Below the pieces are notes generated by a model. That model saw only the letters and a list, made by a program, of their open reading frames with translations. It searched no databases and was not told where the DNA came from. From a virus: DNA of 39,063 nucleotides. The first letter of the stretch is position 1; each line of letters opens with the position of its first letter. Below are positions 21,041 through 35,341 of this stretch, piece after piece. The stretch spans positions 1-39,063 of IMG/VR virus record IMGVR_UViG_3300041999_000014. One strand, written 5' to 3'. Both the position numbers and the translations under genes were made by a program.

Positions 21041-22339
21041 TCAGGCGCGACGGGTGAAGGTCCAGGAGTCCTGGGCCGAGTTGGCGAAGTGGTAGCCGGA
21101 GTCGGGAACCGCGGTGACGGTCTCCGAGGACCCGACCGGGATGGCGGTCTGAGCACCGGGCGTGAGGGTGGTGCCGTCGCCGTCCTCGTAGGTCATCCCG
21201 GTGACGGTCGGGATGGTGATGACACCGGTGGAGGCGTTGTAGCCCGGCTCCTGCGGGGTCGCCAGGACGCTGTTCGAGGCGGTCTTCTTGATGACGAGGG
21301 CCGACTTCGGACGGACCAGGGCACCGGAGAGGCGGGTTTCCAGCAGGTACTTCTGCTGGTTGTAGTCGATGTCGAAGTCCTCGAACATCGTGAGCTCGCC
21401 GCCGCGGTCGGTGCCGACATTGTAGTCGTCGAGGTTGACGATGATTCCGACGACGTCGGGGTACTCGTTCAGCGGCTCGACGAGCTGGATGCTGCTGACG
21501 CCCAGGACCTGAGCGACCTCGGACTTGTTGGCGTAGTAGCGACGGCCCATGCCGTCCTTCGCCTTCAGGAACTTGTTGAGCTCGCGGACCGTGGTGTACA
21601 GGGTCGGCGTGCCGGTGCCCTTGTAGAACTCCATGCCGTCCATGACGGCGTCGACGACCTCCTCGTAGGAGGAGTCCGCGTCGTTGACGTTGACGTTGAG
21701 CGTGGTGACGAAGAGCTCGTGGTCGTTGATGATGGAACGGATACCGATGCCGTCCGAAGCACCCAGCGGGTCCTTGACCTTGTCCTCGGCACCCGGGGCA
21801 CGGCCGTCGCCGACGAGGATCGCACGCGCGACCTCCTCCTCGGTCATGAGCCGCATCTCGGCCTTCAGGAAGGCGACGATGTCGAAGTCCGTGATGTCGA
21901 GCATGTCGTCACGGTCGAGCTTCTGCTTCTTGTAGATCGTGGTCGGGCTCGTGGTCCGCTTGCTGACGCCGAACCACTCCTCCTCCTTGTAGTTCCCCTT
22001 GATGTAGCCCTTGGCCCGCGCGTCGTCCTGGGTCAGGTCGGCGGTGAAGGTCTTGATCCGGGAGAACGGGGTCTTGCGGGTGCCGTTGAGGACGGACGAG
22101 ACCCACTCGGTCCGGCGCTTCTCGAGGTCGATGGTCCCGGTGGCCATCTTCGCGTCCGGGAACAGGACGTCGATGTTCTCGATGCCGTGCTGGAGGGCGT
22201 AGTTGTTGACGGCCTCACGGATGGACCCGACCTTCACCGCGTCGGCGAAGATGCCCTTGACGTCTTCCTGCGTGAGGCTGTGCTTGATCGTGTCGCCGCC
22301 GTTCTTGGCAGCGTTCTGGTCGAAGACGTTGCGCGACAT
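21041..22339 (-). CDS. Major capsid protein from internal start
   Basis: Inside the protease-capsid frame, an ATG at 22339 (MSRNVFDQNAAKNGG, residue 245 of the fusion) is preceded by AAGGAGG at 22353-22347 with seven bases between, the best ribosome site in the region. It would give a 432-residue capsid protein in the same frame. This would let the phage make many more capsid subunits than protease fusions. Whether the long form, the short form or both occur in particles cannot be read from the sequence. Confidence 0.75.
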   Translation of the reverse strand: MSRNVFDQNAAKNGGDTIKHSLTQEDVKGIFADAVKVGSIREAVNNYALQHGIENIDVLFPDAKMATGTIDLEKRRTEWVSSVLNGTRKTPFSRIKTFTADLTQDDARAKGYIKGNYKEEEWFGVSKRTTSPTTIYKKQKLDRDDMLDITDFDIVAFLKAEMRLMTEEEVARAILVGDGRAPGAEDKVKDPLGASDGIGIRSIINDHELFVTTLNVNVNDADSSYEEVVDAVMDGMEFYKGTGTPTLYTTVRELNKFLKAKDGMGRRYYANKSEVAQVLGVSSIQLVEPLNEYPDVVGIIVNLDDYNVGTDRGGELTMFEDFDIDYNQQKYLLETRLSGALVRPKSALVIKKTASNSVLATPQEPGYNASTGVITIPTVTGMTYEDGDGTTLTPGAQTAIPVGSSETVTAVPDSGYHFANSAQDSWTFTRRA

Positions 22340-23071
22340 TTCGTCGCCTCCTTCGTGGGTGATGGTGGTCTCGGTGTTCTCGGTGGCGGAGTGTTCGGCG
22401 GCGGACTTCTTCTCGTCCTCCAGGGCGACGCCGATCAGGTAGTGAACGACGTTCTTCTGCTCCTCGTTGAGGGTGTCGTAGATGTCCTTGACGGTGGTGT
22501 CCTTGTCGGCGTGCTCGAGGTTCTCGTCGCCGTCTTCACCGTCCTCGTCCTCTTCGTCATCCTCTTCGTCGTCCTCGTCCGGCTCCTCCGAGTGAGCGAG
22601 AGCGTGGTCGATCGGAACGCCGGTGAGAATGATCGCCTCTTCGTCCGACTCGAAGACGGAACCGTCGGAGTGCTTGATGTTGACGTAGTCGATCACGGCG
22701 CCCGGATTTGCTCCGGCGAGAACGAGACTCACCTCGCGGATCACCCCGTGCATGACGTTCTTGGCCCGCTCCACCAGGTTGTTGGCGTAGATGGACAGGA
22801 ACTTGATGTCGCCGTGTTCGACCAACTCCCGGGCGGTCTCGCCCTGCTTGGTCTTGTTGAAGAAGGCGTAGGCGTAGACGCCCTCGTCCTTGTGTTCGAG
22901 AACGGCGTGGCCGAGAACGTTCTCCGCGCTCGAGTGACCGTGCTGCCACACCAGAGGTACCTGTTGGTGGTGCATGTCCTTGAACGCGCCGTGCATGATG
23001 GTTCGCCCATCCGTGCACTTGAGACCAGCCTTGGTGGCCCAGCCGCCGAAGTCTGCTTCAATGACTCCCAT
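21041..23071 (-). CDS. Prohead protease fused to major capsid protein
   Basis: The 676-residue frame begins at ATG 23071 after GGAGGGGAGA. Residues 1-150 are an HK97-type (S78) prohead protease with likely catalytic H44 (VWQHGH), S93 (KFLSIYA) and the EVSLVLAGANPGA block at 113-125. Residues 155-200 are a very acidic spacer (DEDDEEDDEEDEDGEDGDE), scaffold-like. From 245 an HK97-fold capsid protein follows, with EFYKGTGTPTLYTTV and a late immunoglobulin-like C-terminal domain. In HK97-like assembly the protease removes the scaffold part from the capsid subunit and itself. A nested start allows the capsid to be made alone. Confidence 0.85.
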   Translation of the reverse strand: MGVIEADFGGWATKAGLKCTDGRTIMHGAFKDMHHQQVPLVWQHGHSSAENVLGHAVLEHKDEGVYAYAFFNKTKQGETARELVEHGDIKFLSIYANNLVERAKNVMHGVIREVSLVLAGANPGAVIDYVNIKHSDGSVFESDEEAIILTGVPIDHALAHSEEPDEDDEEDDEEDEDGEDGDENLEHADKDTTVKDIYDTLNEEQKNVVHYLIGVALEDEKKSAAEHSATENTETTITHEGGDEMSRNVFDQNAAKNGGDTIKHSLTQEDVKGIFADAVKVGSIREAVNNYALQHGIENIDVLFPDAKMATGTIDLEKRRTEWVSSVLNGTRKTPFSRIKTFTADLTQDDARAKGYIKGNYKEEEWFGVSKRTTSPTTIYKKQKLDRDDMLDITDFDIVAFLKAEMRLMTEEEVARAILVGDGRAPGAEDKVKDPLGASDGIGIRSIINDHELFVTTLNVNVNDADSSYEEVVDAVMDGMEFYKGTGTPTLYTTVRELNKFLKAKDGMGRRYYANKSEVAQVLGVSSIQLVEPLNEYPDVVGIIVNLDDYNVGTDRGGELTMFEDFDIDYNQQKYLLETRLSGALVRPKSALVIKKTASNSVLATPQEPGYNASTGVITIPTVTGMTYEDGDGTTLTPGAQTAIPVGSSETVTAVPDSGYHFANSAQDSWTFTRRA

Positions 23072-23088: not shown

Positions 23089-23607
23089 CTACTTCTTTGC
23101 CGTGGGTTTGCGGGCTCCGACAGAGCCTTCTTTACGCATCTTCTCGATCCGCTCTTGGATGGTTTTGATCTTGCCCTTCAAGGACTTGAGCTCATCGGCG
23201 AGAATCTCATCCTTGTGCTTCTCGTAGTACTCCTTCGACTGCTTAGCAGCTTTGGCCTTCTGTGAAGCAGTTTGCTTCTTGGCCGTCGTCTTCTTAGCAG
23301 TGGTCTTCTTGGTAGCACTACTCTTGGGCTTGACACCGCTCCGAGCCTTGGCTTGCTTGGTAAGCTCGGCCAAAGCGGTCCGTAGCTTTTCCAGGCGAGC
23401 CTTGAGGGCGTTTACCTCGGCTTCGAGTTTCCTGCGCCGTTCAGCTTGTCGCTGAGCCCTTGTCTTAGTAGGCGGCTTGGGCTTTGCTGTAGGCCTACTT
23501 TTCGACGTCGCAACTGCTGCTGCCTTACGACCCTTCAGCTTTCGAGTCTTGAGGTAATACTCGCGTCTCTTAGCTGCATCGTAGGCATGTTCCAGTTTGT
23601 CACTCAT
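23089..23607 (-). CDS. Basic coiled-coil head protein
   Basis: I start at ATG 23607 (MSDKLEHAYDAAKRREYY), which overlaps the portal stop; 172 residues. It opens with YDAAKRREYYLKTRKLKGRK, a short motif I recall near the N-terminus of several phage head-module proteins that co-occur with HYGIKGMKWG proteins. The middle is a Lys/Thr/Ala-rich disordered stretch, followed by two predicted coiled coils (RRRKLEAEVNALKARLEKL and LKSLKGKIKTIQERIEKM). It could be a scaffold or internal DNA-binding protein. Function unknown. Confidence 0.65.
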   Translation of the reverse strand: MSDKLEHAYDAAKRREYYLKTRKLKGRKAAAVATSKSRPTAKPKPPTKTRAQRQAERRRKLEAEVNALKARLEKLRTALAELTKQAKARSGVKPKSSATKKTTAKKTTAKKQTASQKAKAAKQSKEYYEKHKDEILADELKSLKGKIKTIQERIEKMRKEGSVGARKPTAKK

Positions 23608-24934
23608 TGTCGATACCGAGATCACTGAAGATTGAGTCGACGAGATCATTGACCTCGGCTAGCCCACTCTGGAGAAGGTCTTCTCCCTCGTCTTCTTCGT
23701 CGGTTTCTTCCGGAGGCGGCATACCGACACCTGTATCGGCCTGAGGCATGTTGCTGTTGACGAGCTGGTCGGCCTTCGGATCCTTGGAGGGCTTGAACCC
23801 GATACCTTGACGGATCTCGTTTGCCGACAGAATTTCGTTCCGGGTGAACTTGTCGGCGACTTCTGCCACCTGCTCCATCGGAACGAGATCGAACGGGTTG
23901 CGGAAGTACACGATCGACTGACCCTGAGTACGAGCAGTCTTCGTCAGGAAGGAGCGCTTCATGGCTTCCGTGATCGCCTGAACAATCGGCTTGATAGTCC
24001 GATTGAAGTAGTTGATCATGGCCTTTTCATCGGCCGTCCCGTTCATCACTTCTTCCGTCAGACCGAGCTGCGAATATAGCATCGCAGTCAAGTACTCGAT
24101 CTGCTTGAGAAGGTTGTTCTCAACTGGCCGGTTCAGTTGCTGAATCTTCTCAGTTCCGTCAGTATAGGCAATGCCGTACTGACTTCCCTTGAGCTGAAAC
24201 TCGATATCCTTACGCCGTTGTTCAGCTTGCTGCCGTCGGGCTTCGGACTTGATCACATATGGAAGCTGAATGATCAGATCGAGCTTGCCGGAGCTGGACT
24301 GTTCATCCACGGAGTCCAGCATGTTCAGCTTACGAATAAGCCGCTGAAGCGTCGAGTTCGGCTCGTTCATCACCGAATACAGCGGATTCTCGACGATGGC
24401 CGTGGACTTCTTCGGAACGGTGACTTGCTTCCGTTGTCCATCCCGTTCGTCGTAGAGATTCACGGTGACATGCTGTGGATGCCACGCCACAATCTCTCCG
24501 ACCCGGAGAGAGTTGATGATGAAGCTGGATGATACGGCTGGATCGATGTCGGTATCGACTGGAACGATAGCGGCGACGCCGTGCTCGAACAGAGTCATCG
24601 CTATGTCTTGACGGAATTGCCGAGCCCCCTGGTCGAGGTTCGGTTCTATCGTCAGGCAATCCTGAAGTTCACTGCGAATGTCCTCGAGATAACGCCCCTC
24701 TTTATCCAATCGAGCATGACGAATATCCACTCCCGACACGTCGATCCCAAGTCGAGTGTAGATCGAGGAGATGATGGAACGTTCACTGGAGTATGAACCC
24801 CTACTTCGCTGAGGAGCATAACTTCCGTAAGAACCGTGTCCGCCATGGGAGTGAATCCCGAGATACTTCTCTTCAAGGAAGAGATTCCAGCCGTGTTTCA
24901 GACCCTCCTTCATACGAGAAAACAAGTTTGCCAT
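23600..24934 (-). CDS. Portal protein
   Basis: The 444-residue product lies between the terminase region and the protease-capsid gene. The stretch from residue 55 (ISSIYTRLGIDVSGVDIRH) through WHPQHVTVNLYDERDG, the wing/stem region with LNRPVENNLLKQIEYLTAMLYSQLGLTEEVMNGTADE and the clip region with NPFDLVPMEQVAEVADKFTRNEILSANEIRQGIGF are typical of HK97-type phage portals. Twelve copies should form the DNA channel at the capsid vertex. The C-terminus is acidic and variable. Confidence 0.88.
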   Translation of the reverse strand: MANLFSRMKEGLKHGWNLFLEEKYLGIHSHGGHGSYGSYAPQRSRGSYSSERSIISSIYTRLGIDVSGVDIRHARLDKEGRYLEDIRSELQDCLTIEPNLDQGARQFRQDIAMTLFEHGVAAIVPVDTDIDPAVSSSFIINSLRVGEIVAWHPQHVTVNLYDERDGQRKQVTVPKKSTAIVENPLYSVMNEPNSTLQRLIRKLNMLDSVDEQSSSGKLDLIIQLPYVIKSEARRQQAEQRRKDIEFQLKGSQYGIAYTDGTEKIQQLNRPVENNLLKQIEYLTAMLYSQLGLTEEVMNGTADEKAMINYFNRTIKPIVQAITEAMKRSFLTKTARTQGQSIVYFRNPFDLVPMEQVAEVADKFTRNEILSANEIRQGIGFKPSKDPKADQLVNSNMPQADTGVGMPPPEETDEEDEGEDLLQSGLAEVNDLVDSIFSDLGIDNE

Positions 24935-24967: not shown

Positions 24968-25516
24968 TCAGCCGATCCCCATGTCCTTTAGCAAGTTTCG
25001 GGCAGCCTGGTGACCGTTGGGATCCTTGGCTTTGGAATAAGCCTTCTTGCCCGCGTTGAAGATGGTCTTGTCGATACCCGCCTTGTGAGCGTAGAGGGCA
25101 CCACCGACGAGAATGGCGGTGGCGGCGGAGGCGTACTGAGAATTACCGTTGAGGATATGGCGCGTACCACGAATTCCTCTACCGGCACTCTTCTTGACGT
25201 TCTTCCGCTTCCTCTCTCCTCGGGCTTTCTCGGCATGCCTGGACATGTCTTGGTTGCCGAGGTGTTGGTCGAAGGCCTTCTTGTAGTTCGGGTCCTTCTT
25301 GGCCTTACCCTCGACCTTGGCCTTGATCAGTTTTCGTCGAGTACCAGCACCTTCACCATAGAACATCTTGGCTCGGGCGAATTCCTTAGCATCCTTGCGG
25401 GCCTCACGATTCGTACTGCGAGAAATACCCGAGGGATCGGATCGACGGACGCCCCACTTCATGCCCTTGATGCCGTAGTGGACGAGTTCGCTGGAGGAGG
25501 GGCCCAAATCAGACAA
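24968..25516 (-). CDS. HYGIKGMKWGVRR protein with DAKEFARAKMFYGEGAG domain
   Basis: TTG at 25516 is supported by GGGGAGG eight bases upstream; 182 residues. The motif LVHYGIKGMKWGVRR is at residues 11-25. It is followed by a very basic helical domain (DAKEFARAKMFYGEGAGTRRKLIKAK ... HLGNQDMSRHAEKARGERKRK), which I recall attached to this motif in other phages, and a small hydrophobic segment (ASAATAILVGGALYA). It sits between terminase and portal, where an internal or ejected head protein is plausible. Function not established. Confidence 0.7.
   Translation of the reverse strand: MSDLGPSSSELVHYGIKGMKWGVRRSDPSGISRSTNREARKDAKEFARAKMFYGEGAGTRRKLIKAKVEGKAKKDPNYKKAFDQHLGNQDMSRHAEKARGERKRKNVKKSAGRGIRGTRHILNGNSQYASAATAILVGGALYAHKAGIDKTIFNAGKKAYSKAKDPNGHQAARNLLKDMGIG
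25447..25489. repeat. HYGIKG-coding DNA repeat, copy 1
   Basis: About 42 bases coding the LVHYGIKGMKWGVRR motif, nearly identical to 25929-25972 and close to 26305-26347 and 28549-28592. Confidence 0.8.
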
Positions 25517-25531
25517 GTGAAAAACCTCCCC

Positions 25532-25984
25532 TTACATCGACGAGATGTTGTAGGCGCCACTGCGATTCTGCTTGGAGTAGCTCGGACCTGCGGATGCCAC
25601 ACGAGGGAGACCCATAGCAGCAGCCGCGGCTGCTTGACCACGCTTGGTTTCAGCCCTGACTGCGACGTGTTGAGAGGCAACCCCTGCCACCATCGAAACG
25701 ACTCGAATAGCCCGTGGAGCGAACCGAGCAGCGATGACACCTGCGGCGATAGCGTTGTACTTTTTGCGGCGACGAGAATACTCGTTCTTACGTGCCGTCT
25801 TGATGTCCAAGCCTTTGTTCAAGTCGCGATTGACGCGCTTGACTCCGCCCTTACCGAAGTTGTTGCGATCGTAGTTTCGCTGACTTCGAGTGTAGTTGGC
25901 ATTTGGGGTGTCATCGCGGTCTGCTCGACGAACACCCCACTTCATGCCCTTGATGCCGTAGTGGACGAGTTCACCGGAGCTCAT
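25532..25984 (-). CDS. HYGIKGMKWGVRR protein, 150 aa
   Basis: ATG at 25984 (MSSGELVHYGIKGMKWGVRR) overlaps the end of the preceding gene by 14 bases; the longer frame is rejected. After the motif comes a basic, Asn/Arg-rich helix (residues 22-75), then a hydrophobic stretch (AIAAGVIAARFAPRAIRVVSMVAGVAS) and an Ala-rich tail. The general plan is the same as in the neighbouring motif proteins, although the sequences after the motif do not align. Function unknown; probably head-associated. Confidence 0.7.
   Translation of the reverse strand: MSSGELVHYGIKGMKWGVRRADRDDTPNANYTRSQRNYDRNNFGKGGVKRVNRDLNKGLDIKTARKNEYSRRRKKYNAIAAGVIAARFAPRAIRVVSMVAGVASQHVAVRAETKRGQAAAAAAMGLPRVASAGPSYSKQNRSGAYNISSM
25929..25972. 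repeat. HYGIKG-coding DNA repeat, copy 2
   Basis: Second copy; over the core CCCCACTTCATGCCC and GATGCCGTAGTGGACGAG it is identical to copy 1. Confidence 0.8.
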
Positions 25985-26357
25985 GGTCAGTCTTCTTGTC
26001 GGCAGCCCTACCAAGGCTGGCAGCGGACGACACACCAAAGGTGTTCAAACCGACAACCGTAAAGGTCCCGTAGGCCTTGAGGAGATCCATGGTCTTGGCC
26101 TTGCCGGTTGCGAGTCGCTTCTCTTGGCTGCGAAGGTTCTTGGCTCGGCGAGCGGCTTCCTTCTTCAGACTTCCACGAGATTTGACCGCACCGTAAACAG
26201 ACGTCCCAGCAAGAGTCGTGGCCTTGTCTCTGAATGAACCCTCGCCGCTGGCTACTCGTTCTAGCCTCGACGCTCGCACGTTGAGTCGGCCGGTACGTTG
26301 CTTACGAACACCCCACTTCATACCCTTGACACCGTAGTGGACGAGCTCCTGGCTCAT
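25971..26357 (-). CDS. HYGVKGMKWGVRK protein, 128 aa
   Basis: ATG at 26357 follows a GGGGG-type ribosome site. The product starts MSQELVHYGVKGMKWGVRK, continues with a strongly basic helical region (residues 20-88) and ends with a hydrophobic segment (AYGTFTVVGLNTFGVSSAASLG) and a short charged tail. It follows the terminase gene directly. The plan (motif, basic helices, hydrophobic segment) matches its two downstream neighbours. Function unknown. Confidence 0.7.
   Translation of the reverse strand: MSQELVHYGVKGMKWGVRKQRTGRLNVRASRLERVASGEGSFRDKATTLAGTSVYGAVKSRGSLKKEAARRAKNLRSQEKRLATGKAKTMDLLKAYGTFTVVGLNTFGVSSAASLGRAADKKTDHELR
26305..26347. repeat. HYGVKG-coding DNA repeat, copy 3
   Basis: Third copy, with three silent or conservative changes relative to copy 2 in the core. 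Confidence 0.8.
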
Positions 26358-26379: not shown

Positions 26380-28113
26380 TCATTCGAACTGCTCTTTGTT
26401 GAGCTTGTAAGCCACGAATGCGTCCATCAGGGCGGCGACGTTGTCGATCTTACCCTCTTGTCGCTTCTTCAGGAGCTTACGGTTTCCGTTCGTGTCCTCA
26501 AGGGTGATCGAATTACCCATGGCGAAGGACATCAATGCCTGATCAAATATGAGCAATCGTTGACCACTCAGAGTCTTGATTTCCCCAAGCGGGACAGACT
26601 CTGTTCGCGCTCCCTGGATAACCTTTTCGATGCCGAACGGCCCGTTTTCCGCTTCCCAGCGGTTTACAAACTCCTTAGCGTTGTAGGGGTCGAAGCCAAA
26701 TGCGCGCACGTCATAAGCACATTCCTGGATATGTGCATCCAGGTCGTCATAGACCTCCATCATGTCGAGGATCGTGCCCTCGAAAATGTGGAGGCTTCCT
26801 TCATTGATGAACTCGTCGTACTTGTGCCTCATGGCCCCCGGGAGATTCATCAGCGTCAGAGACGTGATGTAACTCCGGGTCTTTATCCCGAATTTGCCAC
26901 CTGGCAGTGGAAAGAGGAATGTGAATGCACAGAAGTCGTCACCCTGGGAAAGGTCGGCCCCCATAGCACAAGGCATCGACCAGAATTCCCGGTAAGGATG
27001 AGGCAGCGTCTCCTCGTAAGTGAAGAAGTACGTGTAACCCTCCATCGGAATACCGAAGCGCTTCGCCAGAATGTCATTCCGGGACGCCGGGGCCTTTTCG
27101 GCTCGTTCAACATCCAGTTGGTAGACGTCATACGTTACGGTCTTCCCGAGGTTGGGATTGGCCTTGGGCCACATCGCCGGATTGCCGACTTCTTCCAATT
27201 GATCCAGCTTGTAATGCCAGATCGAGATGTGAGGAGCTTGGTACTCTCCCTTGAGAATGTCGGCGAGCTCCAGTTTGATCGTATCACCGCTGCCGTTACG
27301 AACAGTACCTTCCGAACTGACAGCCACGATGAGGTAGTCGTCGAGTTTGGAGGCGCCCTGTTCGATAGCGCCGATGACATCTTCTCGGAGATCTCCGGAA
27401 AGCCATTCGTCAACCGTTGCGACTTTAGTTCGAAGACCTTGGAGCTTGTTGATGGTCATCGGCCGGACCTCGAGCATCGAACCCGTAAGGAAGTTCTCGA
27501 CACCCTTCTTGGTAGCAGCCAGCTTGACTCGGTTGGCCTTAGAACCAGTGGTGTTCTGCAAAGAGCCCTCTGTGAGAAAAGAGAAGAGAGGACCCCGGCT
27601 CCGAGTGATAGCAGTGCGGATCGGCTGCATGACTTCTTCCGCCTGCTTCATGGTCGGAGCAGTTGTGATTTGATGCGTGGTAGAGGTGTCTACGTTGAGG
27701 AAATAACTCTGTAGACAGGACTCGTAGAGAGACTTTGCCGCACCTCGAGCCACGATGAGGTACTGCTTGGTCGTCAGACGCTTCTTGATCACCTTGTCGA
27801 CGTACTTTCCGCTTTTCGGTTCGTACACACTCCGGTTGACGAAGTAGTACCAGCAGAAAATCTGTTCGGCCCACAGTTTAAAGGTGTCGAGAAGATGGAG
27901 ATCGCTGCCGTCGGTGAGTGTAAGTTCCTTCTCGCAGTAGAGAACGAATCCCTCTACCGGATCGGCATCGTAGTAGATGTTCGGGTTGGCGATGAGTGCG
28001 TCAATCCGATTCATCTCCAGAGAGACTTCCTGGTTGACAGGAATATCGCCTCGAATCACCGCGGCACGGAAGAGTCCGTAGTAATGCGGTGTTGCTGTGT
28101 TGGACAAAGCCAT
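26380..28113 (-). CDS. terL: Terminase large subunit
   Basis: The 577-residue product is an HK97-type large terminase. The ATPase carries a Walker A variant ARGAAKS (122-128) and Walker B VATVDEW (231-237). The nuclease half contains MGADLSQGDD (metal-binding D near 387), FGFDPYN near 475 and a late NVAALMDAF. It drives DNA into the prohead and cuts the concatemer. The candidate small subunit is about 2.8 kb upstream, separated by HNH, endolysin, connector and phosphoesterase genes, which is a wide spacing. Confidence 0.92.
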   Translation of the reverse strand: MALSNTATPHYYGLFRAAVIRGDIPVNQEVSLEMNRIDALIANPNIYYDADPVEGFVLYCEKELTLTDGSDLHLLDTFKLWAEQIFCWYYFVNRSVYEPKSGKYVDKVIKKRLTTKQYLIVARGAAKSLYESCLQSYFLNVDTSTTHQITTAPTMKQAEEVMQPIRTAITRSRGPLFSFLTEGSLQNTTGSKANRVKLAATKKGVENFLTGSMLEVRPMTINKLQGLRTKVATVDEWLSGDLREDVIGAIEQGASKLDDYLIVAVSSEGTVRNGSGDTIKLELADILKGEYQAPHISIWHYKLDQLEEVGNPAMWPKANPNLGKTVTYDVYQLDVERAEKAPASRNDILAKRFGIPMEGYTYFFTYEETLPHPYREFWSMPCAMGADLSQGDDFCAFTFLFPLPGGKFGIKTRSYITSLTLMNLPGAMRHKYDEFINEGSLHIFEGTILDMMEVYDDLDAHIQECAYDVRAFGFDPYNAKEFVNRWEAENGPFGIEKVIQGARTESVPLGEIKTLSGQRLLIFDQALMSFAMGNSITLEDTNGNRKLLKKRQEGKIDNVAALMDAFVAYKLNKEQFE

Positions 28114-28131: not shown

Positions 28132-29151
28132 CTACTGAGTCATTCGCCGGACGAGAACACCTGCACCTGCGGCGGCAGCGGGGCCTGCTCCACCGGTCGC
28201 GTAACCGAATCCGGCAGCAGCAGCCGTCTTGAGACCGGTCTTGACCATCTTGCCCGAGTCGGTTTCGAGGAACTTCCGGACTTGATCGTAGGTCTGGGCC
28301 ATACCCAGGTACTTCTTGACCTGATCGTGCCCTCGGTCCATTCGCGACTTACCCGGAGGACTGGACATCGTCTGGTTGTACCGACGCTCCAGATCGACAC
28401 GCTCGAGGAACTGACGCATCTCCTGGTTACTAAGAGATCCGGTCCCCTTGGTTTCGATCTTGTTGTGCAGTCGGTTGACGTTCTTCGCGTCTTCCGACAA
28501 CTGAGGCTTCGGAGAGCTCTTCGAGCGAGCGAGTTGAGCCTCACTACGTCGGACGCCCCACTTCATGCCCTTGATGCCGTAGTGGATCAAGCTGGCTTCC
28601 ATGGCGGAGCGGCCTCGAGCCTGAGACATAGCTACCTCCATGTCGTACTCTCCGTGTTCGAGCTGAAAGGTGGGTCCTGCGTAGTCGTCGACCCACATGG
28701 CGATTCGATCGAAACCCACAGACCAGAACTGCTCTTGGCCGTCCGACTTCTTTGCAGGATTCTCCGGGTAACCTAGTGTCAGATGCGGGGTCCACTCGGG
28801 GAATTGTTCCGTCGAGAGGTATGCCTGCGAGATGAGGTCGTACGAGAGAAGTCTCGAACGAAAACCCTCGACGACCTTGGTCCACTTCTGATCGAAGAAC
28901 AGCACGTCTGCCTTGTGTTCTCCGAGTTCGCCTCGACGCTTGACGTCGAGAAAGAACGGAGGGAGTGTGGACGATGCGTGTTCGACGTACTCCATGATGA
29001 GCTTCATCTGAGTAGCGTCGAAGTCGTTCTCACCCAGATAGAGAAGAGTCAAGTGAGGTTCTTTCTCACTTGAAACTTTTCGAACAGGATCGTGCTCGTT
29101 AGGGAGAGCAACGATCACTAGCTGATTACGGGAAGCGTTGGATCGGTCCAT
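28132..29151 (-). CDS. 2H phosphoesterase fused to HYGIKGMKWGVRR head domain
   Basis: I start at ATG 29151 (MDRSNASRNQ), which has an excellent GGGAGGAGG site; the longer frame is rejected. Residues 1-170 form a 2H phosphoesterase: PHLTLLYLG (H33-x-T35) and PHLTLGYP (H123-x-T125) are the paired catalytic motifs. The motif HYGIKGMKWGVRR is at 190-202. The remaining 137 residues carry LSNQEMRQFLERVDLERRYNQ, as in other phage head proteins, and an Ala/Gly-rich hydrophobic end. 2H enzymes open 2',3'- or cyclic oligonucleotide bonds; phage Acb1 of this fold destroys CBASS signals. The substrate here is unknown. Confidence 0.8.
   Translation of the reverse strand: MDRSNASRNQLVIVALPNEHDPVRKVSSEKEPHLTLLYLGENDFDATQMKLIMEYVEHASSTLPPFFLDVKRRGELGEHKADVLFFDQKWTKVVEGFRSRLLSYDLISQAYLSTEQFPEWTPHLTLGYPENPAKKSDGQEQFWSVGFDRIAMWVDDYAGPTFQLEHGEYDMEVAMSQARGRSAMEASLIHYGIKGMKWGVRRSEAQLARSKSSPKPQLSEDAKNVNRLHNKIETKGTGSLSNQEMRQFLERVDLERRYNQTMSSPPGKSRMDRGHDQVKKYLGMAQTYDQVRKFLETDSGKMVKTGLKTAAAAGFGYATGGAGPAAAAGAGVLVRRMTQ
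28549..28592. repeat. HYGIKG-coding DNA repeat, copy 4
   Basis: Fourth copy, inside the 2H phosphoesterase fusion; identical to copy 1 over the central 30 bases. Confidence 0.8.
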
Positions 29152-29489
29152 GATTCCTCCTCCCTCTGGACGTTCAGACGCCACTCGAACTCGGCGATCT
29201 GATTCTTCATCGCATCGATGGCATATGACGTGCTCGGAGGATCGAACAGAAGACGGACCCTCAGGTACAGGTACGTCTTGACGAGATTCAGCCGGGGGTC
29301 GGTACCGATGAAGGTGTCCCACGTAGCCGTGTCGTCTTCGATCATGTAGCCGTTGACGGGTCCGATCCCGACTTGGTCGAGTACGGCCAGCACCGAGTTG
29401 ATGTGAGTGACGATGTCGACATCGAACGACGTATCAGCCTCACCGATACCCAGAATCTTCTTGGTGCTTTTGAGTATGCTTGGTTCCAC
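29118..29489 (-). CDS. Head-tail connector protein
   Basis: I prefer GTG at 29489 (123 residues, eight bases after AGGAGG); GTG at 29498 is open but too close to the ribosome site. The all-helical product (ILGIGEADTSFDVDIVTHINSVLAVLDQVGIG, LVKTYLYLRVRLLFDPPS, QIAEFEWRLN) has the pattern of gp6/gp15-type connectors that extend the portal. Its place upstream of the terminase, not after the capsid gene, is unusual. It overlaps the phosphoesterase start by 34 bases. Confidence 0.75.
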   Translation of the reverse strand: MEPSILKSTKKILGIGEADTSFDVDIVTHINSVLAVLDQVGIGPVNGYMIEDDTATWDTFIGTDPRLNLVKTYLYLRVRLLFDPPSTSYAIDAMKNQIAEFEWRLNVQREEESWTDPTLPVIS

Positions 29490-29521
29490 GTGAGACACCT
29501 CCTCTCATTTTGACGGTTTCG

Positions 29522-30391
29522 TCAGGACCGGCGGTTGACCTCGGCCTGAACGGCGTTGTAGTTGTACCCGGCACGGGTGAGCCTGCTCTTGCGGACTTCG
29601 CCGTCACCCCAGTCACCTCGCATGACCTGAGTAGCGACTTGACTGATGGTCAGCTTGGGCTTGTTCTCGCCCTTGGGCGTCAGAAGGCGGTTGACTTCCT
29701 TCTGAACGGTGTTGGAGTTGTAACCCATGCGAGTCAGCTTCTCGACACGAGCGGCACCGTCGCCGTGCTTGCCCGCGATGACCTCGCTGGCGATCTGGCT
29801 GATCGTCTTCCGGACCGGCGGGTCACCGGCGATCTGGCGGTTGACCTCACGCTGGACTTCCGCCGGGTCGTAGCCCTCGGAGCGAAGCTTCTGGGTGCGG
29901 GTGTAGCCGTTGCCGTACTTGCCCGCGCGAACGTCCTGAGCGACCTCAGAGAGCGACTTCTTCTCGGGGGTCGGATCGACGGGATCGTTCTCCGAACCGG
30001 GCTTCTGGTACGTGCCGGTGAAGAAGAGGGCGTGAACGTGGTCCTTGTGGTTCTCGGTGACACTGCCTCGGTCGGCCATCTGGCGAACGACGCCAGGCTG
30101 GGTGACGGTCGAGGTGATCTTCTGGTACCAGATGACGTGCTGGAGCCGGAGTCGCTTGCGGTTGGTCCAGATGTAGTTCCGGATCCAGTCGCCCGCCGCC
30201 TTGTTGCGGACCATGAAGTCGAGGGCCCGGCCGCTGTGGTGCTCGGTGTTGTTGGCGTTGCCGTCGTAGCCCCACATGAACCAGACGTCGTGTCCGGCCT
30301 TCTGCGCTGCGTCGAAGATCTCCTTGGCCCTCGACTTGGTGGGGCCGGTGACCTTGCCGAGCTTGGAGCTGGCGTGTGCGAAGGTGGTCAT
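29522..30391 (-). CDS. Endolysin: LAS-type peptidase with three CW_7 repeats
   Basis: The 289-residue product has an N-terminal peptidase of the M15/LAS type: HHSGRALDF (H52 and D58) and HKDHVH (115-120) supply the likely zinc ligands. Three Cpl-7-type cell-wall repeats follow (about 146-184, 196-234, 248-286), each of the form VAxxVxxGxxGxGxxRxxxLxxxGYxxxxVQxEVN. It cleaves peptide links in the peptidoglycan after holin opening. There is no signal peptide. The gene lies in the packaging region, 23 kb upstream of the holin genes. Third-position GC is high. Confidence 0.85.
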   Translation of the reverse strand: MTTFAHASSKLGKVTGPTKSRAKEIFDAAQKAGHDVWFMWGYDGNANNTEHHSGRALDFMVRNKAAGDWIRNYIWTNRKRLRLQHVIWYQKITSTVTQPGVVRQMADRGSVTENHKDHVHALFFTGTYQKPGSENDPVDPTPEKKSLSEVAQDVRAGKYGNGYTRTQKLRSEGYDPAEVQREVNRQIAGDPPVRKTISQIASEVIAGKHGDGAARVEKLTRMGYNSNTVQKEVNRLLTPKGENKPKLTISQVATQVMRGDWGDGEVRKSRLTRAGYNYNAVQAEVNRRS

Positions 30392-31680: not shown

Positions 31681-31935
31681 CTAAGTGTCAGACTTCGACG
31701 GCTCGGCAACCTTGATGTGAACGCCCGATACGTTCTGTTCCACGATCTCGTCTATAGCATCGTTGATCGCTTGCTGTTCGAGGTCGTGAGTAAGATCGTC
31801 AGACGTTCTTGTTACTCGACCGAGTAGGCCGAGTGTGTCGTACCTAGGGAAGTCCCACTTCCACCAGTCGTCCCATTGGGTGTGAGGGTTGTAGGGATTG
31901 TCCTTGGTACTGAGTAGGAAGTTGGTGTCACTCAT
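31681..31935 (-). CDS. 84-aa partner of polymerase-like protein
   Basis: ATG at 31935 overlaps the stop of the polymerase-like gene (ATGA), so the two are translationally coupled. The product contains STKDNPYNPHTQWDDWWKWDFPRYDTLGLLGRV, a DNPYNP-x-TQ-x-D-x-W pattern I recall in small proteins next to similar genes in other phages. The rest is helical and acidic. I assign no function; coupling suggests a partner or regulator. Confidence 0.7.
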   Translation of the reverse strand: MSDTNFLLSTKDNPYNPHTQWDDWWKWDFPRYDTLGLLGRVTRTSDDLTHDLEQQAINDAIDEIVEQNVSGVHIKVAEPSKSDT

Positions 31936-34751
31936 GCGCCTACTCCACTCAGTCCAGCCCTGAGGGTGGACACCGAGATGCCGAGCTGGTCGGCTACGTC
32001 AGCCAGTGAGTACCTGTCACCACGAAGGAGGAGCATGGCTCTGTTCTTCATAGTGGCATCCATTACCGGCTTGTCTCGGGGTGTGGCCAGTTCCTTGATC
32101 TTCTCCACGTCGGTGTTGTCGAGGATCTTCTCCAGCATGGTCTTGCTGATAGCACCAGCCTGGATAGCTTGCCACTCTGTCGGCGTGATGTCGATCTTGT
32201 CCTTGCCTGCACCTACCTGATCACGTGCGTTGGCAAGAGCCTTGGACTTGACCTTCTTGATCTCAGCATCGTCCATGTCTGGATTCGCCTTGATCTTACG
32301 GTTGTACACTACGTTGGCCAAGACCTGTGCCTGTCGCTCACGGGGGGCGTTCATAAGCGCTTCCCCAAGCTTGGCGTTTAGCATCTTGACTTCAGCAGCG
32401 AACTCTCTGTTCGCCGAGGGAGAATACTCGAAGTCCTTGATACCAAGGAACTCACGCCTTGCCTGGTTGGCAAGGGCCTTGAGGCTGTTCGAGTGATCGG
32501 CATAGACGCGTTCGATCCGTGTGTTCTTCTCTGAGATCAGAGTGTACGCATCGTCCGTCTCGGCGAGCTGGGTGGTCTTCTCGGTCTTCTTCTTACCGGT
32601 GTAGAACTCAGCACCGGTCTCTACGTAGACCTTCTTCCCAGTGACAGAGTCGATCGGGCCGCCTTCCTTGGACGGCCGTGGCTTCCTATCCAGTACTCTC
32701 GTCTCTGCCGTTGCCCTTGAGATGAGGGTGGATGCACCACCATCCGGCTTCCCAGGCGGACGGGGTTGGTACTTCGTGCGAAGGGCCGAGATGTTGTTCT
32801 CTTTCTCAGAGAGCTTGTAGTTCAGCCTGTGTTTCTCGGCATCGATCACCACCATGGAGTGCCTGACTGCACGAACGATCTCCTCGTCAGGTGCACCTTG
32901 CACAGTCATGTCGGTGATAAGGTTGGAGATCTTCCCCATCTCCATACCCTTAGCCTTGGGGTTCGCCTTCTGCCCTTCGCGGAACTCGGTCTTTCGGGTG
33001 GAAGCGTTGTACGTACCGCCATCCATAGTTCGCATACCGTCGTACGGAGGGTACGCGGACTGAGGATCAAACCCTTTCAGACCCTCAAGCGGCTTGTCAT
33101 TCCTGACCTTACCCTGATTGTTGGGGATGACCAGAACAGTGTCACCATCGAAGTCTGCACCCGAGAGGCGTTCGGCAACGGAGTGGTGAATGCCGATGGC
33201 GTCAGGCGCATTACCCAGAAGATCCTTGGCTTGACGATGGCGGTTGTTCACCCTGAGTTCAGGAATCTCAGAGATGTGCCCGTGAGGGAAGCGAACGAGA
33301 ACTACAGTCTCACCATCTCGGAAGGTGGGGGCATAGACCTCGTTCTTCGCCATCGTGTTGACCGGAAGTATCACCTTGGTTGCCTGGCGAGGAAGGTGAG
33401 CTGCTTTGAGATGGACAGAAGCCGAATCGACCGAATCGGCAAACTTCTCAAGCAGGTGTTTCTTGACGGTCGGGTTGCTGAGCGACATGATCTCACGGAA
33501 CTCTCGTTCCTTGCTCTCACGCGCGAGGGTCAATTGTTCTTGGGCAAGACTGGGCTTCTGCTTGGAAAGCATCTGAGACGACAGGGTCTTGGACCAGGTG
33601 TCCCATGTACCTTCCTTGTTGACGAGATTCATCGCCGATTCGACGATCTTACGACCGTTGGCATCGCGAACGAAAGAACCGTCAGGGTTCTTCTTGTAGA
33701 TCTGATCGTCGATGAGAGAGCCGAACGGATCGTCCTTGTCCACCTCGCCAGTGGACTTGTCTCGCTTCATCTCCTTCATGGCATCGAGCTTGTTACCCGT
33801 GTTCTTCTTGTTCGTGTTGAACACGAGGTCGACTCCGTCAGGCATGTCGTCGTTGTACATGGCCATACCCTTAAGGTAATGACCATCGCCTACGGCGATG
33901 CGCACCTGAGCATAGCTCGACTTACCGAGTGAGACGTCCTTGACACCACGACGAACGTAGATCACGCCGTCAGCGTCGGTTCCGCCTTCTTCCGCATAGC
34001 GGACCTTAATTCGCTTAGGGTCGACAGAGAGAGGCGGCCTTATGGCGTCGTAGCGACGACCACCATCATCAGAACGGACCCGGATCTGCTGGATCTGATC
34101 CATATTCTGATAGACCTCACGGGTCGAGACATCCGACTTAGTGAGGATCTTCATGGTCGTGTGCTTGCCAGTTCCGAGTTGCTCTACCTTGATGTAGTGG
34201 AGTTTGTAACCCTCACTCTCGAGAAGACGCCTCGCATCGCGAAGCTTCTCGTGACTGACGTTCAGATGAAGCTCGACGCCCTTGCCGACATCGATGTACT
34301 TCTTCTTCTCCACCTGGTCTTTGAGCATGGCCGCGGTGGAGGCGAGGATGCTGGCCTTGGTCTCGGCGTCCTCCCTAAGGAGGTTGCGGACCGTGGACTC
34401 GGGGACACCCATACGCTCGCCAATGGCGACGTTGGAAAGCCCCTTATCCTTGAGACGACGAGCCTGCGAGACGTCGGCTGCCTTCTTCTCTTCCTTGGCC
34501 ACTGAGACTGTGGTTCGAAGCTGGGACTGAGTCATGCCGAAAGTCTCGGCAATCGCCTTGTCCTTCAGACCCTGACGACGCATGTCCTTTATGATCGACT
34601 GGAAAGCATTGGCTCGTTCGGCCGGGGTCTCTCCTGCTTCCCAGGGATATTTCTGAGCGTCTTCTTTTCCGGACCCGTACGGGTAGCGTCCGGAACGCTT
34701 GCGGATGCCGTAGTGTGTGAGAACATCACGGTCTTCTTCACTGATTTCCAA
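31932..34751 (-). CDS. Single-chain RNA polymerase-like protein (DFDGD) with HYGI motif
   Basis: I place the start at TTG 34751, three bases after the upstream stop, giving 939 residues; a longer frame overlaps the upstream gene by 90 bases. HYGIRKRSGRYPYGSG is at 13-28. Two helix-turn-helix segments follow (62-82 and 105-126), and a third is at the C-terminus (YSLADVADQLGISVSTLRAGL). Residues 480-545 contain VRFPHG and IHHSVAERLSGADFDGDTVLVIP, matching the RNA polymerase beta-prime active-site barrel (R-x-P ... NADFDGD); DFDGD is 533-537. YonO of phage SPbeta is a known one-chain enzyme of this type. Whether it is active, and what promoters it uses, is unknown. Confidence 0.65.
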   Translation of the reverse strand: MEISEEDRDVLTHYGIRKRSGRYPYGSGKEDAQKYPWEAGETPAERANAFQSIIKDMRRQGLKDKAIAETFGMTQSQLRTTVSVAKEEKKAADVSQARRLKDKGLSNVAIGERMGVPESTVRNLLREDAETKASILASTAAMLKDQVEKKKYIDVGKGVELHLNVSHEKLRDARRLLESEGYKLHYIKVEQLGTGKHTTMKILTKSDVSTREVYQNMDQIQQIRVRSDDGGRRYDAIRPPLSVDPKRIKVRYAEEGGTDADGVIYVRRGVKDVSLGKSSYAQVRIAVGDGHYLKGMAMYNDDMPDGVDLVFNTNKKNTGNKLDAMKEMKRDKSTGEVDKDDPFGSLIDDQIYKKNPDGSFVRDANGRKIVESAMNLVNKEGTWDTWSKTLSSQMLSKQKPSLAQEQLTLARESKEREFREIMSLSNPTVKKHLLEKFADSVDSASVHLKAAHLPRQATKVILPVNTMAKNEVYAPTFRDGETVVLVRFPHGHISEIPELRVNNRHRQAKDLLGNAPDAIGIHHSVAERLSGADFDGDTVLVIPNNQGKVRNDKPLEGLKGFDPQSAYPPYDGMRTMDGGTYNASTRKTEFREGQKANPKAKGMEMGKISNLITDMTVQGAPDEEIVRAVRHSMVVIDAEKHRLNYKLSEKENNISALRTKYQPRPPGKPDGGASTLISRATAETRVLDRKPRPSKEGGPIDSVTGKKVYVETGAEFYTGKKKTEKTTQLAETDDAYTLISEKNTRIERVYADHSNSLKALANQARREFLGIKDFEYSPSANREFAAEVKMLNAKLGEALMNAPRERQAQVLANVVYNRKIKANPDMDDAEIKKVKSKALANARDQVGAGKDKIDITPTEWQAIQAGAISKTMLEKILDNTDVEKIKELATPRDKPVMDATMKNRAMLLLRGDRYSLADVADQLGISVSTLRAGLSGVGA

Positions 34752-34753
34752 CT

Positions 34754-35341
34754 CTAGGCCCCCATCTTGTACCGTTCGGCAACGGAGTGAGCTGTACGAA
34801 TCCGATCGTAAACCCACGCCAAATACATCTGGTCTATGTCGCAATACTCCGGTTCTTCGAACTGGTAAATGCGAAGTTGACCTTCGACCTCGAACGGTTT
34901 GAACTCGTACTCGAGGCAGAACACAGCCGCGTAGATGTATAGTTGGTCGAACGACGCTTTGCTAGTACCCGTCTTCAGATCGTGGACCCGAAGAAACAGT
35001 TCAGCAGGATCGAATGAGATAGCGTCGGCAGTTCCGTAGCAGTACAAAGAGTACCACAGAGACTGCTCGGGCGTCATCTCATACTTGATCGCGTCGTTCA
35101 CGTATCTCGCAAGAACGGGATACTTACCATCTACGTCGAGCGTGACTCCCTCTTCGATGTTCATGGAGGCCAGGTTGTGTAGTCTGGTGCCCCTAGCAGA
35201 GGCTTCAGCGTTCGTCAGACGCTGTACCAACTTCTCATCACTGTCTCGTAGCCAGTGATAATTTGAGGGGCTCAGAATGGCATGTGTGCCCTCAATCCTG
35301 GGATGTGAGTGAAACCCCGTGAAACGCTCGGGCGAGAGCAT
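34754..35341 (-). CDS. Cas4/RecB-like PD-(D/E)XK nuclease
   Basis: I use ATG 35341 (195 residues), overlapping the upstream gene by 50 bases; a longer start at 35383 is open. The pattern is LSPSNYHWL near the start, GTRLHNLA, then GTADAISFDPAELFLRVHDLKTGTSKASFDQLYIYAAVF, i.e. the GxxD...(D/E)xK and Q-x-x-x-Y of Cas4/RecB-type exonucleases. It lacks obvious iron-sulphur cysteines. It likely acts in phage recombination or replication with the neighbouring nuclease and helicase. Confidence 0.75.
   Translation of the reverse strand: MLSPERFTGFHSHPRIEGTHAILSPSNYHWLRDSDEKLVQRLTNAEASARGTRLHNLASMNIEEGVTLDVDGKYPVLARYVNDAIKYEMTPEQSLWYSLYCYGTADAISFDPAELFLRVHDLKTGTSKASFDQLYIYAAVFCLEYEFKPFEVEGQLRIYQFEEPEYCDIDQMYLAWVYDRIRTAHSVAERYKMGA

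Follow-up and report, generated by a model that had tools for sequence, protein, structure and literature searches.

The window analysed here, i.e. the whole 39,063-nt stretch of IMG/VR virus record IMGVR_UViG_3300041999_000014, carries on its minus strand a gene in which a putative phosphoesterase and a head-cluster protein are joined (Table 1), and this raises the question of what an enzyme may be doing in such a place. The frame is open and begins with an ATG preceded by a strong Shine-Dalgarno sequence (SD; gggaggaggaatcATG, -11.9). A longer version starting at GTG 29322 (396 aa) was rejected, as it would run into the connector gene in a different frame and the ATG at 29151 has a strong SD of its own. 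An earlier note on this DNA had described a 2H phosphoesterase that shares its frame with the HYGIKG motif of a head-type protein. This was borne out by the single 339-aa ORF and the retention of the fusion in relatives, by the position in the head-gene cluster, in the slot between connector and large terminase (TerL), and by membership of the DUF7211 family, to which the motif HYGIKGMKWGVRR belongs (PF23847, a 25-aa motif; 43.7 bits for the 339-aa protein against a cut-off of 27). In the AlphaFold2 (AF2) model the 2H domain is confidently folded, the tag region (172-200) disordered and the tail helical. The same note had called the tail basic and hydrophobic: the first part stands (net charge +15 for residues 175-339 versus -12 for residues 1-174), and hydropathy peaks at a KD19 of 0.99, under the usual transmembrane cut-off, in a tail that is Ala/Gly-rich near its end. 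A transmembrane segment was rejected on the same value.

Table 1. Features of the head-gene region of the window, with the evidence for each.
Feature	Positions	Strand	Evidence
Full-length gene: 2H phosphoesterase - DUF7211 tag - helical tail, 339 aa	28132..29151	-	Open frame, Pfam, AF2, SD
2H phosphoesterase domain (putative activity), residues 1-174, net charge -12; H33/T35 and H123/T125	28630..29151	-	PF13563, AF2, Foldseek, motifs
DUF7211 tag HYGIKGMKWGVRR, residues 184-204, largely disordered by prediction	28540..28602	-	PF23847, low pLDDT at 172-200
Basic helical tail (phrog_11022 family), C-terminal stretch Ala/Gly-rich	28132..28539	-	phrog match, charge, AF2
Predicted internal ribosome-binding site and start, ATG GAG GTA GCT ATG (SD GGAGG, 5-nt spacer, first base of ATG 28629)	28627..28641	-	Sequence, cross-relative tests
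Predicted nested product, 165 aa, tag and tail without enzyme	28132..28629	-	Internal SD; stand-alone homologues in Bing, pSt2402, DrGrey
Connector protein (Phage_connect_2), upstream neighbour, overlaps 2H start	29118..29498	-	Pfam
Large terminase (TerL), downstream neighbour	26380..28113	-	Pfam, phrog
DUF7211-tagged protein (phrog_17496), 128 aa, basic	25971..26357	-	Pfam, phrog, charge
DUF7211-tagged protein (phrog_34327), basic, probably starting within this frame	25532..26038	-	Pfam, phrog, charge
DUF7211-tagged protein (phrog_6291), 182 aa, basic	24968..25516	-	Pfam, phrog, charge
Portal protein	23600..24934	-	Pfam, phrog
Capsid protein with prohead-protease fusion	21041..23071	-	Pfam, phrog

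The 2H assignment is not a chance match, because the PF13563 model (2_5_RNA_ligase2) aligns to residues 28-154 with 29.9 bits, above its curated cut-off of 27, the motifs are invariant, and AF2 models the domain, LigT-like in shape, at a pLDDT of about 95. Both H-x-T/S-hydrophobic motifs of the 2H superfamily are present in full (H33-L-T35-L and H123-L-T125-L), at the residues 33-35 and 123-125 where the paired H-x-T motifs had been noticed before. They form invariant columns in a 49-sequence alignment (A3) and occur in every one of the 77 relatives whose sequence covers the two motif regions, the last of the 78 distinct relatives being truncated at its 5' end. By a strict pattern the 2H domain is fused to the tag in 76/78 relatives, and a 77th (L211) carries a variant tag (GQKWG). 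Since motifs, tag and both regions are kept among relatives, the 2H-DUF7211 fusion is real and conserved across actinophages.

Structural comparison places the modelled domain nearer to LigT and cyclic phosphodiesterases (CPDases) than to Acb1, the phage enzyme to which it had been likened. In a Foldseek search against the PDB, a bacterial phosphoesterase, LigT, plant CPDase, YjcG and Usb1 come first (E 1e-7 for the phosphoesterase and LigT), and Acb1 (7t26) follows at rank 38 (E 5e-4). Sequence searches of the PDB gave no clear relative, the best 2H profile matches being archaeal LigT-like proteins (E 0.08), and PADLOC returned no match. The domain is accordingly described as a 2H phosphoesterase of LigT-like shape with putative activity. 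E. coli LigT (ThpR) and the plant and archaeal 2',3'-CPDases, closest in both fold and profile, differ from it in sequence (about 16-22% identity to LigT, below the equivalog cut-off), in that the domain is here fused to a phage head-cluster protein, and in that repair partners were not found.

A 2',3'-cyclic phosphodiesterase serving a tRNA or RNA repair pathway is what the nearest folds and models would suggest, and many phage annotations indeed call such genes 'RNA ligase'. However, TIGR02258 (LigT/ThpR RNA 2',3'-CPDase) scores 27.3 bits against an equivalog cut-off of 65.7, and RNA_ligase, KptA and RtcB domains were detected in 0/12 of the relatives' genomes or contigs searched, several of them complete phage genomes, while control genomes gave matches; none of the three is annotated in phages Kardashian or ClubPenguin. 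Because these partners are missing from the 12 genomes, classic RNA repair is not favoured, and we regard a role in RNA end repair as distinctly unlikely. Hydrolysis of ADP-ribose 1'',2''-cyclic phosphate (Appr>p), for the turnover of NAD-derived products, is suggested by the presence of Arabidopsis CPDase (1jh6, 1fsi) among the top Foldseek matches, but no KptA to make Appr>p was detected in the 12 genomes and a fold does not by itself fix what is cleaved, which leaves this activity highly improbable.

The earlier note had linked the domain to CBASS, with RNA repair and an NAD-derived substrate as further possibilities; in the CBASS reading, an injected Acb1-like enzyme would degrade the cyclic oligonucleotides made by CD-NTases. 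The superfamily and the H-x-T/H-x-T tetrad are indeed common to this domain and Acb1 of T4 (57B) and FBB1 (PMC9117128), packaged 2H domains directed against nucleotide signals have been proposed by Iyer et al., and the lack of RNA repair partners in the 12 genomes points the same way. Nevertheless, the link to Acb1 itself was not sustained: the Acb1 model PF23474 scores only 13.5 bits against a cut-off of 27, T4 Acb1 aligns to the domain by hhalign (64%) in the region of the second motif only, across 35 columns, LigT, YjcG, CPDase and Usb1 all precede Acb1 in fold similarity, and the two histidines are 90 residues apart, compared with 69 in Acb1 (H44/H113; PMC9117128). Acb1 of T4, moreover, is a free 152-aa protein and not a fusion. 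A counter-CBASS function is thus unlikely, and the CBASS signal is to be seen as one possible substrate among several candidates. In the T4 genome (NC_000866.4, 73591-74410; L226) the Acb1 gene 57B directly adjoins ipI, which encodes an internal head protein.

The slot between connector and terminase is occupied with or without the enzyme. A tagged protein lies directly before TerL in 131/160 loci, 66 with and 65 without 2H, a count that shows co-occurrence and not frequency because tag or 2H had been the criterion for picking the loci. Within Bingvirus, the Streptomyces phages Kardashian and ClubPenguin have the 2H domain, and Bing has only tag and tail (164 aa), so that 2H-plus Kardashian and 2H-minus Bing form a natural pair differing at this slot. 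Stand-alone homologues of tag and tail are likewise kept in DrGrey and pSt2402, and both Rimavirus DrGrey and Arthrobacter phage Gordon have a short slot protein matching tag and tail. Since the carrier is retained where 2H is missing, the 2H domain is, as judged from these sequences, an N-terminal extra that a conserved carrier may have or lack. The window holds three more DUF7211 proteins, between terminase and portal. Further observations at this locus are a protein of the endolysin family carrying three CW_7 repeats for cell-wall binding (29522-30391, minus strand) and, in the capsid protein (21041-23071, minus strand), an InlB-repeat-like domain C-terminal to the fused prohead protease-like domain.

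A feature absent from the earlier note is an in-frame ATG, Met175, located at the junction between 2H domain and tag. Its SD has a predicted strength of -10.2, to be compared with -8.3 at the major capsid protein start and -12.1 at the TerL start. An SD of -8 or stronger is found at the linker ATG in 43/61 relatives, against 0/113 for in-frame ATGs inside the 2H domain; the 18/61 junctions where a strong SD is absent include the Gordonia members sampled. At X-E-V-x-M sites, GGAGG is present in 39/41 cases versus 17.0 expected from the synonymous usage of each gene (85% clustering, P 2e-15), in 31/33 versus 13.4 at 70% clustering, and in 9/11 versus 4.3 at 60% (P 0.002), this clustering removing shared ancestry in part only. 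The codon preceding Glu has G as its last base in nearly every case, be it a codon for Met, Leu, Ala, Glu or Pro, and control X-Glu pairs inside the 2H domain show the opposite trend (62 versus 104.5 expected). Synonymous shuffling of single genes gave no significant result, and the signal is one that emerges across genes. The possibility that E-V-A-M-S is conserved only as a protein or cleavage motif was rejected by the synonymous-site test, which indicates constraint at the nucleotide level; a protein role may coexist with it. In two relatives with an added acetyltransferase (L153 and L064, the architecture of L153 being read from its near relative L152), the strong SD stands before the last tag, downstream of the acetyltransferase. 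Together, the conservation of the SD and its placement after the extra enzyme suggest that a start yielding an enzyme-free carrier has been selected for, and the carrier is probably also made alone from Met175. The arrangement is that of a nested in-frame gene, with an internal in-frame start and a conserved SD. Separate expression of the two halves, which the earlier note had named as evidence against its proposal, would thus apply to tag and tail, probably made alone from the conserved start, and not to the enzyme, which occurs only as part of the fusion. What the present analysis newly brings out is this start, together with the modular nature of the DUF7211 carrier.

Does the carrier belong to the particle? 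Tagged ORFs number 308, in a set to which a pattern scan contributed 80 IMG/VR loci and further loci were added, and all of 90 representatives match DUF7211, with additional matches to 2H (6), Gln_amidase (5), GNAT (4) and portal (1). The last is a portal protein (L090) with the tag at its C-terminal end and without 2H. Gp18 of OhMyWard is a tagged GNAT, longer chains read 2H-tag-GNAT-tag-tail (L152) and tag-GNAT-2H-tag-tail (L209), and in L179 the 2H-tag unit is followed by a domain with the sequence HESAHSLFH. Net basic charge is found in 97% of tagged ORFs versus 25% of neighbouring ORFs, and a transmembrane-like stretch in 17% versus 8%. In Lactococcus phage 1706, orf7 occupies the same slot, is tagged, lacks 2H and is deposited as a structural protein, a label that rests on the deposited record. 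Indirectly, orf7 of 1706, the portal-tag fusion and the basic nature of the tagged proteins favour association of the 2H-tag protein with the virion. The domain of L179 also occurs, tagged, at L019:5024-5704 and is annotated 'peptidase' in ClubPenguin, and tagged ORFs with a papain-fold Gln_amidase-like domain were seen at L065:2034-3206 and in four other cases. A tagged neighbour family (L091:4195-5031, L018:5672-6547 and relatives), considered as a candidate ART and searched with its AF2 model, gave as best Foldseek match a cyanophage A4 pre-ejectosome chain, weakly (E 2e-3), and next, also weakly, Fusarium NADase and Tse6.

From the 2H fold with its motifs, the fusion, the locus, the tag family and the conserved internal SD and start, all of which are read from the sequence, we infer a scheme of translation, packaging, injection and substrate for which we consider the chances evenly balanced. 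Two proteins would be made in one frame, a full-length form with a LigT-like 2H domain on the N-terminus of the DUF7211 carrier and a short form, from Met175, consisting of the carrier alone. With an enzyme fused to a tagged head protein and a start for the carrier alone, the phage may thus load a few enzyme copies into each particle: the carrier would belong to the head, and a minority of enzyme-bearing copies would enter the procapsid, in the manner of lambda C with its nested scaffold Nu3. The enzyme would then leave with the DNA into the cell and hydrolyse, early in infection, a 2',3'- or 3',5'-type phosphodiester in an immune nucleotide, in RNA ends or in RNA. Siphophages are not, to our knowledge, among the classic examples of phages that inject head proteins, which counts against injection, and the junctions lacking a strong SD and the non-significant single-gene shuffles also weigh against the scheme. 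The fusion could instead couple expression or tether the enzyme to heads, with the 2H domain acting on RNA or nucleotides in the producing cell; the late-gene position would suit this, as would a strong internal start making the carrier the main product and 2H an optional passenger. This alternative seems rather doubtful to us, given the near-constant fusion of 2H to the tag and a carrier family whose members include a portal fusion and a protein recorded as structural.

Delivery of the enzyme by way of the particle would have parallels in several known systems. In lambda, the protease C and the scaffold Nu3 are nested in one frame. The present gene resembles this pair in having an N-terminal enzyme on a shared assembly domain and an in-frame internal start for that domain alone; it differs in that the enzyme is a phosphoesterase and not a capsid protease, and in that the two forms are here predicted from sequence, whereas for lambda a C-Nu3-B complex has been described (PMC3224144). 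The carrier may also be compared with proteins that accompany phage DNA into the host. The internal proteins of T4 are packaged in the head and injected. The same applies to T4 Alt (PMC5512222). A short tag with an effector, basic character and head-cluster genes are alike in both cases; the tag differs, and for the present proteins a place in the virion is a prediction. For 2H domains, packaging and injection on MuF or portal proteins has already been proposed, with the task of cutting RNA or of countering nucleotide signals (Iyer et al. 2017, PMC5512222; 2022, PMC9503650), and the DUF7211 case fits this idea with a different carrier. Common to both is a 2H domain joined to a head-cluster protein, which lies here between connector and TerL; by contrast, the present 2H domain sits on a DUF7211 carrier, Pfam matches to MuF or portal are absent from its chain, and there is a conserved nested start. 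Unlike polyvalent head proteins, the chain has a single enzyme (2H), although relatives L152 and L209 combine 2H with GNAT. The 2017 text makes no mention of the tag motif (PMC5512222), and in the papers searched neither the motif strings nor 'DUF7211' occurs.

It is tempting to extend the scheme and, tentatively and with somewhat less than even confidence, to regard DUF7211 (HYGxKGMKWGxR) as a general cargo tag that would bring exchangeable enzymes into the heads of a large group of phages, with dual-start genes between connector and terminase setting the ratio of enzyme-bearing to empty carrier. The cargo would comprise 2H, GNAT, papain-fold deamidase-like and HExxH peptidase-like enzymes and possibly an NADase/ART-like domain. 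If so, candidates for enzymes delivered by the virion could be picked out by a single short motif in many phage genomes that are still uncharacterised, and the nested start would explain how an enzyme can be dosed without spoiling head assembly. A further protein of the window (31932-34844, minus strand) is RNA polymerase-like, of the DFDGD type, with an N-terminal LTHYGIRKRSGRYPYGSG and an LxHYG in common with DUF7211; the same type occurs in L012, L040, L071, L083, L109, L139, L224 and L225. Among the nine ORFs found with SGRYPxGSG, DFDGD is present in 9/9, and this protein may be a virion RNA polymerase with a related tag.
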